Shown here: one piece after another, positions 3,562-23,932 of the stretch | Layout: each line of letters opens with the position of its first letter | How positions within the stretch are numbered: position 1 is the first letter of the stretch | From: an uncultured Clostridia bacterium | GTDB taxonomy: Bacteria; Bacillota; Clostridia; Lachnospirales; Lachnospiraceae | Direction: 5' to 3' | DNA length: 35,640 nt | Assembly (NCBI GenBank): GCA_946184675.1 | Contig: CAMHFW010000004.1 | Span: 1-35,640 of the forward strand | Notes under the pieces: model-generated | The model's input: only the letters and a program-made list of their open reading frames with translations | The model's database searches: none | Told to the model about the DNA's origin: nothing | Position numbers and translations under genes: made by a program

Positions 3562-3987
3562 TTTTATGCTCCTCCTGTTATATACCTTCTTAAATCAGAA
3601 TTCCCCGTCCCCGGAGATTCCATTTTGTCCGAATTATGTATATCATATTCTTTATGCGTCAGATATTCAAGAAAATTACGTCGTTTTTTTTTAATTGAGT
3701 TTAAATTCTGTTCAGATTATCTTGCATGTAAGTTTGCTGGATTACTTGCCGGCTGCGATGGAATGACATGAAAATCCAGAAAAGTGGGAAGTGTATAATT
3801 TCCCGGTCATTATGCTGCTTTTATATACATTATTACAGTCGTCTCCCCGAAATGCAGATTATAACCAGAAATCCCCAAAACCGTTGTCTGGATTAATATT
3901 CATCTTGCAGAGTCTGTCTGAAATAGCATTCAGAAGATGCACAATATAAGAATAAATTAGCAAAATATACATCGGCCTTTTCAAGAT

Positions 3988-4112
3988 ATGTATAATTAGC
4001 CTGAAAGAATGAAGTCTTTGTTGATAAAGGCTGATAAAGAAATAAAGAACCACCTGTCCGGTGCAGTACCTAACAGGTGGTTCTTCTAGTTGTAGAATTT
4101 TTTTACACTTCC
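3988..4112 (+). repeat. Dispersed element copy A (diverged relative of 23719-23917)
   Basis: tgtataattagcctgaaagaatgaagtctttgttgataaag...aaagaaccacc[hairpin]ggtggttctt...gaatttttttacac aligns by eye to the minus strand of 23719-23850; about 34 of 43 bases identical across the TGTATAATTA...TTGTTGATAAAG segment. Confidence 0.6.
4045..4085. terminator. 13-bp perfect hairpin within copy A (possible terminator of 4138-5577 on the minus strand, or structural hairpin of the element)
   Basis: AAGAACCACCTGT (4045-4057), 15-nt loop, ACAGGTGGTTCTT (4073-4085). Confidence 0.6.
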
Positions 4113-4137
4113 TGTTTATTTGTCTGTCCCGGCAAAT

Positions 4138-5577
4138 TCAGAACTTGCCGCTGCCGCCGGAGAAGCCGTGTGAGTTGACGCTCGTTCCGCCGCCTCCGCC
4201 GCCATGGCCGCCGGTCTTGTTCTGGCTGCTGCTCACCCGCACGCGGTTGACCGTTGTGTTCACATAGTGATCCTGCTTGGATCTCATATACATGCCGCTC
4301 TCGTGGCTGATATAGTTCACAGCAGTCCGTTTGATGCCGGTATTTTTCATGGTTCTGCGCAGGCTGCCAACGCGGCCTTTGCCAGTTATAAAACCAATAA
4401 GCAGAGACAGCAGCGAGCTTCCGCCTATCATGCCTGCCCAGTTGACTGTGCGCTCCATGGGCGTTCCGTCTGCCGCTTCTTTGAGAATCTTCTCGCCAAA
4501 ATTCAGGTAAGCGGAGAATCCGCCGTACCAGTCATTGTTTCTGAAAGACGACACGAAACGGTCTGTCAGCTGTCCCTGTGCATAATCTGTGTATGCAAAG
4601 AGGGCATCGGATCCGTAAATCTTGAGGCAGTAGTCGCGCTCTGCCATGCTAAGGGCCAGAATCACGCCGTTTTGCTCACTGCCAAGCCCCAGCTGATTGT
4701 CCAGGTACAGTTTCTCTGTCCAGAGCTCGATACTGGAGCTGCCTCCGTAGCTGCGGTAATCATCCACAGTCAGCACATAGACTCCTGTGCCGTACCGGTC
4801 TGCAAGTTCGCCAGCCTTGGACTCCAGCGTCTGCCTCTCCGCGTCGCTCATCAGACCTGCCCCGTCCTTGACATAGGTTCCGTCCATCTGATCCCAGACC
4901 AGATCACTGGATGCAACCTGATCCAGAGGAGGAAGCCCGTCCTCCGCCAATGACAGGACACTCTCTGCTGCAGTCTCCGTCTCAGCAGCCGTCTCCGCAG
5001 CTGCTTCTGTTTCTGAAAGACTTCCTGCCGTCCCTGCCGCGGCAGAGCTTTCTCCATTTACAGAAGCTACTACACATTCTATAGCATGGAAGAAAGCATC
5101 ATTGTCCGACTGCAGGTCTCCGCTGAAAGCCTCCTCATTCAGATACCGGCCGACTCCCGTGTACATATCGCTTACGATCGTCCGCAGGCTGTCCTTATTC
5201 TTCCCGCCGAATACGATATCATAGTCCTGATACTGCAGACCGTCTCCGTCTTCCGTTACATAGATCATCAGAAGAATGCCGTCTCCGGTTGACTTATATC
5301 CATAACCATACTGGGTATAGAAAATCTTTGCGTAATCGTCTATCCCCTTCCCTTCCAGATCATTCACCACATCAACATGAATATCGATCTGCTTTTCCTC
5401 TGAAAGGTCGCTCAGCTGCCGGCCCATGGTCTCACAACGGCTTTTATCAAGCTGGTCTGTGGAATCATAGAGCTGTCCGTATACGGAATAAGCCATAGCC
5501 GGCACGGCCGGAAGCAGGGTAAGGAGAAGGACAAGCATGAGCGCTGCTGCTGCAAATACTTTATTATTTCTGCGCAT
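4138..5577 (-). CDS. Secreted/membrane protein with two TPM (TLP18.3/Psb32/MOLO-1-like) domains and Gly-rich C-terminus
   Basis: Signal peptide MRRNNKVFAAAALMLVLLLTLLPAVPAMA; two TPM-like stretches (about residues 30-160 and 235-365); TM segment WAGMIGGSSLLSLLIGFITG; tail GGHGGGGGGTSVNSHGFSGGSGKF. Confidence 0.75.
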   Translation of the reverse strand: MRRNNKVFAAAALMLVLLLTLLPAVPAMAYSVYGQLYDSTDQLDKSRCETMGRQLSDLSEEKQIDIHVDVVNDLEGKGIDDYAKIFYTQYGYGYKSTGDGILLMIYVTEDGDGLQYQDYDIVFGGKNKDSLRTIVSDMYTGVGRYLNEEAFSGDLQSDNDAFFHAIECVVASVNGESSAAAGTAGSLSETEAAAETAAETETAAESVLSLAEDGLPPLDQVASSDLVWDQMDGTYVKDGAGLMSDAERQTLESKAGELADRYGTGVYVLTVDDYRSYGGSSSIELWTEKLYLDNQLGLGSEQNGVILALSMAERDYCLKIYGSDALFAYTDYAQGQLTDRFVSSFRNNDWYGGFSAYLNFGEKILKEAADGTPMERTVNWAGMIGGSSLLSLLIGFITGKGRVGSLRRTMKNTGIKRTAVNYISHESGMYMRSKQDHYVNTTVNRVRVSSSQNKTGGHGGGGGGTSVNSHGFSGGSGKF

Positions 5578-23663: not shown

Positions 23664-23718
23664 AGTTCCTCTCTCCTTTCAGGAGTATTTACAGGCGTAG
23701 TTTCGCCGAATGCTTAAC

Positions 23719-23917
23719 GAGGCTGTAAAAAAGTTCCTGAATAGCAAGACCACCAGATCGGCTAAACGCCGATCTGGTGGTTCTTTGTACCTCTTCTTGC
23801 TTTATCAACAAAAACTATATTTTTCCACGTTAATTATACACTTCCCGCGTATCATGACAGTCAAGTCCTTTTGTGTGTGTAAATTCATGACATGAAAAGG
23901 GACTTTTTTACAGCCTC
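23719..23917. mobile_element. MITE-like element, 199 bp, 16-bp perfect terminal inverted repeats, internal hairpin
   Basis: GAGGCTGTAAAAAAGT (23719-23734) and ACTTTTTTACAGCCTC (23902-23917); internal perfect stem 23750-23762/23768-23780. Confidence 0.65.
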
Positions 23918-23932
23918 TTTGGGAGTATGGCT

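Follow-up and report, generated by a model that had tools for sequence, protein, structure and literature searches.

IS1272 and TnSha1, elements of the IS1182 family in Staphylococcus, use terminator hairpins as insertion sites and leave no target duplication (PMC4923244), and for IS1272 insertion occurs by stem-loop replacement, with stem-loop-dependent transposition proposed (PMC5678879). ISCbo5, an IS1182-family element of Clostridium botulinum group III, sits in hairpins at gene ends (PMC3098183). Short MITEs of an IS1182-family element have also been described, namely those of ISMac2 in Methanosarcina acetivorans, which are 160–169 bp long and present in 7–14 copies (PMC3852290).

Here we analyse a 35,640-nt stretch of Lachnospiraceae DNA (the window), in which a first-pass annotation had singled out positions 3988–4112 as a possible structured RNA. 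The segment is very likely the right end of a non-autonomous, MITE-like element with IS1182-family ends, and its hairpin inherited from the right end of an IS. What is observed comprises a repeat family, its TIRs, right-end homology to IS1182, a hairpin with compensatory change, a position at gene ends and the lack of target duplication; mobilisation in trans and terminator activity are the parts that we infer.

A family of short repeats without a transposase gene

The plus strand of 3988–4112 is homologous to the minus strand of 23719–23838, with ~71% identity (BLAST against the own genome, E = 2e-7). With the fullest copy as query, E values among copies range from 1e-31 to 1e-115, and the similarity is not by chance. 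The proposal that this segment and the 23719–23850 region are two diverged copies of one element thus agrees with motifs, coordinates and BLAST. The motif positions given at the time hold, whereas the extent was too narrow, the repeat running from ~3762–3786 to 4113 and the other copy to 23922; the annotation covered only the right-hand part, the one common to both window copies.

The own genome, a 1.9 Mb draft in 209 contigs that is 87% complete, contains at least four copies on three contigs (window copies in Table 1). The two fuller copies, C1:33340–33692 and C2:45689–46059, are each about 365 bp, with TIRs GCTGTAAAAAAG...CTTTTTTACAGC. Specifically, the element starts with the left TIR GGTTGTAAAAAAAGTCCCTTTT, the GTGTATAATT motif and ~180 bp of A/T-rich DNA, and continues with a second TGTATAATT, TTTGTTGATAAAG, the hairpin and the right TIR CTTTTTTACAGCC; in the copy alignment, 3988–4112 corresponds only to the right-hand part. 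The 4-kb copy (w4k) is 76% identical to the C2 copy over 3786–4113 (BLAST, E 5e-56) and has kept the body, with the left TIR gone and the right TIR decayed; having lost the left TIR, it cannot be active. In the 23.7-kb copy (w23k), the DNA separating the two TATAATT motifs has gone and the motifs are fused into one, so the deletion falls between them, while its 23-nt TIRs (23716–23738 and 23898–23920) are 91% complementary. TIRs like those of IS1182 elements are present in C1, C2 and w23k, and on the right side only in w4k. The copies (204–365 bp) carry no transposase gene and have stops in every frame read.

Table 1. Features of the two window copies of the repeat
Feature	Position	Strand	Basis
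MITE copy w4k, whole element; left border uncertain (left TIR decayed), clear homology from 3786	3762–4113	+	BLAST, alignment
First GTGTATAATT motif, left subterminal	3786–3800	+	aligned in C1, C2 and w4k
Second motif, TGTATAATTA, in w4k	3989–3998 (listed as 3988–3999)	+	copy alignment
TTTGTTGATAAAG	4017–4029	+	read in sequence
Right-end hairpin AAGAACCACCTGT...ACAGGTGGTTCTT of w4k, terminator-like in both directions; followed by GAATTTTTTTACA	4045–4085, arms 4045–4062/4068–4085	+	fold and reading
Decayed right TIR (AATTTTTTTACAC) of w4k	4096–4110	+	aligned with CTTTTTTACAGC of other copies
MITE copy w23k, 204 bp, internal deletion	23719–23922	−	BLAST, alignment, inverted-repeat reading
Left TIR GAGGCTGTAAAAAAGTCCCT of w23k	23898–23922	−	inverted-repeat reading
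Right-end hairpin ACCACCAGATCGGC...GCCGATCTGGTGGT of w23k	23749–23781, arms 23749–23762/23768–23781	−	fold and reading
Right TIR GGAACTTTTTTACAGCCTC of w23k	23716–23738	−	inverted-repeat reading

A TIR pattern scan of 295 genomes of the order returned only the own copy and one mismatch match, and neither the phage and plasmid collections nor distant blastn with the repeat gave a match. The sole match of the viral-contig pattern scans (L044) is an AT-rich chance match in a coding region, and in genomes G090 and G120 the BLAST matches (L015, L016), in coding DNA, are short and due to chance. No autonomous parent sharing the 350-bp body turned up in the own draft or elsewhere, its absence being weak evidence because repeats are often lost from draft assemblies. 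The small MITE family is new, its kind already known, and it is an essentially ordinary object.

IS1182-family relatives

A BLAST search of 145 related genomes returned a match in G096 (L014), a short element with the TIR GGGGCTGTAAAAAAGTC, the hairpin AAAGAAACGCCAG...CTGGCGTTTCTTT and an adjoining 82-aa open-frame remnant. The remnant matches no Pfam or NCBIfam family; it resembles, at 57–60% identity, the N-termini of the 528-aa proteins of G181 and G114, which are IS1182-type transposases (PF13751, PF05598, PF01609). This 0.3-kb deleted IS, in which the same TIR, the same hairpin and a remnant of the transposase N-terminus are present, is an intermediate form.

A transposase-based scan of genome contigs gave 80 hits, with 78 loci in Clostridia, and the layout is constant in those with readable ends: TIR GGGGCTGT(A/T/G)AAAAAA, a hairpin and, a few bases ahead of the transposase start, TGGTATAAT, then the gene, 100–200 bp, a hairpin and the right TIR. 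Full-length ISs (in G181, G114 and the scan loci) have GGGGCTGTAAAAAA as their TIR, with a hairpin immediately internal to the right one. The 1.8 kb ISs with a DDE_Tnp_1_6 transposase that occur in Lachnospiraceae and other Clostridia match the MITE in TIRs, right-end layout and stem; nearly all of them have this hairpin between an A-run and a T-run, its pairing preserved as the sequence changes. With some of them the MITE right end aligns base for base (ACAAAGAAACGCCAGTTCCGGCAAATGCC in L072, ACAAAGAACCACCAGTTCAGCCAAATGCC in C1). Two of these, from Clostridium sp. 12(A) (L053) and Mediterraneibacter agrestimuris (L072), share with the window elements the TIR (GGGGCTGTAAAAAA...), a right-end hairpin at equal distance, an AAGAAxCxCCAG stem and the lack of target duplication. 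They are 1.8 kb long with a transposase of ~528 aa, whereas the window elements are 0.2–0.37 kb, gene-less and unrelated in their interior, and have the TIR as GAGGCTGT or diverged, unlike the GGGGCTGTAAAAAA... of these ISs.

Neither as DNA nor in translation could similarity to IS1182 elements be detected for the inner ~250 bp of the MITE, and translation of the MITE revealed none to the IS1182 loci; that the MITE arose from an examined IS1182 by simple internal deletion is therefore not proven. Related IS1182s are found within the same family, and the genus itself provides a C-terminal remnant, with differing interiors. The remnant (G004:C8:4840–5073, in a same-genus species) belongs to an IS1182 transposase, is 67% identical and lacks a recognisable right TIR or hairpin.

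Two further observations concern the full-length elements themselves. Upstream of the transposase gene, loci L053–L110 have a second hairpin and T-run between the left TIR and the TGGTATAAT near the ATG, which suggests a terminator that would block read-in transcription and a leaderless transposase mRNA. The closed genome G114 contains four full-length, near-identical IS1182 copies (L047, L049–L051), suggesting recent activity.

The right-end hairpin as a probable terminator

The two window hairpins have MFE z-scores of −5.3 and −5.5, and none of 200 shuffles was as stable. The hairpins of IS right ends have z mostly between −2.5 and −9, as against a mean of −0.36 (sd 1.0) for 120 coding segments. 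Of the 33 IS right ends in which a TIR was identified, most have the outer end of the hairpin 16–29 nt ahead of where the TIR's ACAG ends; the diverged ISs L080, L062, L089–L092 and L096 do not fit this placement or were missed by the 100-nt window.

The inner stems had been correctly read as CTGT-N15-ACAG in one copy and AGATCGGC-N5-GCCGATCT in the other, and the claim that pairing is kept while the sequence changes is borne out once the comparison is extended to IS1182-family right ends. Specifically, in the 12-bp outer stem of a close group of these, 96.4% of cells are paired and four pairs have both sides changed. The stem covariation score is 0.341, compared with 0.127 in shuffles (0 of 500) and above every slid control too, modest evidence in that it comes from seven distinct rows and sequences that are related may score above shuffles. 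As the full 12-sequence alignment misplaces a gap in the 3′ arm, only the two stem arms were used for the pair count; the two-arm alignment was hand-assembled from identical rows, and in row win23k_C1 one base of the 3′ arm is deleted. A stand-alone structured RNA is nevertheless not supported: the segment is the end of a transposon-like repeat, its structure is common to IS1182 ends, where it resembles a terminator, and it has no match in Rfam.

The MITE copies have 6–8 A before the G+C core and 6–8 T in the 10 nt after it, that is, the G+C stem followed by a T-run of an intrinsic terminator, and the flanking A-runs and T-runs make the hairpin usable in both directions. Among ISs with a clear hairpin, at least five A are found upstream in 28 of 28 and at least five T downstream in 22 of 28. 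A simple terminator scan did not flag the MITE hairpin. By its composition, the IS right-end hairpin on the MITE is probably a bidirectional intrinsic terminator, termination itself being the step we infer. A transposase supplied in trans would recognise the TIRs (GCTGTAAAAAAG), and the hairpin inside the right end, inherited from the IS, would most likely act as an intrinsic terminator that closes the transposase transcript and replaces the host terminator at the insertion site.

An unlikely alternative is that the hairpin works as DNA and not as an RNA terminator, the IS1182 transposase recognising it in transposition as a cruciform or a single-strand structure. The distance to the right TIR, which is fixed in most ISs, would suit such a role, as would the stem-loop-dependent transposition proposed for IS1272 (PMC5678879). 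However, hairpin sequence and length differ completely between ISs, as they do in terminators, and the A-run and T-run flanks fit termination.

It is very improbable that the repeat carries a small RNA whose expression is driven by TGTATAAT and which terminates at the hairpin, even though TATAAT is kept in 4 of 4 copies, ~55 nt before the hairpin, and the segment folds well. A simple scan finds no acceptable −35 at proper spacing, against the suggestion that TATAAT is a small-RNA promoter, and the region between TATAAT and hairpin has no structure common to all copies. Furthermore, in IS1182 elements a TATAAT immediately precedes the transposase start instead of the right-end hairpin, and Rfam at gathering and permissive thresholds gave nothing (the best E, 0.95, falls far short of gathering). 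There is no support for a small-RNA gene in its own right. Equally improbable is a non-transposon intergenic repeat, REP/BIME-like or of another type, with no more than a resemblance to an IS end, for although the element is short, non-coding, intergenic and palindromic, it has 23-nt TIRs and a right end matching IS1182, and only four copies were found.

The candidate structured RNA thus turns out to be a mobile-element end, a caution that covariation alone can stem from insertion-sequence terminators.

Insertion sites and comparison with known elements

All four copies abut gene 3′ ends, and three of the four lie between convergent genes. The w4k copy is directly downstream of a TPM-domain gene (minus strand, stop at 4138) and upstream of an MTHFR-family gene, w23k lies between convergent genes for a MalK-like ABC ATPase and an NT5C-like protein, and C1 and C2 are each between convergent reading frames. 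At the C2 copy (G000, L003 512–1267), the upstream frame, by eye precorrin methyltransferase-like, ends at a stop codon that lies in the left TIR. No target duplication was found at any of the four copies or, apart from a T-run, in 34 full ISs.

The flanks of the 34 full ISs are more inverted-similar than swapped flanks (permutation p 0.002), as expected if the target is a palindrome; the inverted similarity of the flanks of the four MITE copies is not above chance. A search for empty sites in five other species of the genus gave no clear syntenic orthologue pair for the flanking genes and no usable junction, and a replaced terminator could therefore not be shown for the window copies. We tentatively suggest, as a possible though somewhat doubtful generalisation, that on insertion the host terminator is destroyed and replaced by the bidirectional terminator hairpins which IS1182 elements and their MITEs carry just inside their ends, a near-neutral exchange by which the elements would settle between convergent genes. 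The wider IS1182 set turns this into a testable idea: terminator-targeting elements carry replacement terminators.

By analogy with the published elements, the placement of the copies at gene ends and the lack of target duplication match the behaviour of the IS1182 family, which replaces terminator hairpins. The window copies share gene-end location and absence of target duplication with IS1272/TnSha1 and ISCbo5, the terminator or stem-loop target being that of those ISs; the latter are autonomous, whereas the window copies are gene-less. The MITEs of ISMac2 are likewise short and gene-less with IS1182-type ends, and differ from the window elements in host and sequence, the two being likened by description.
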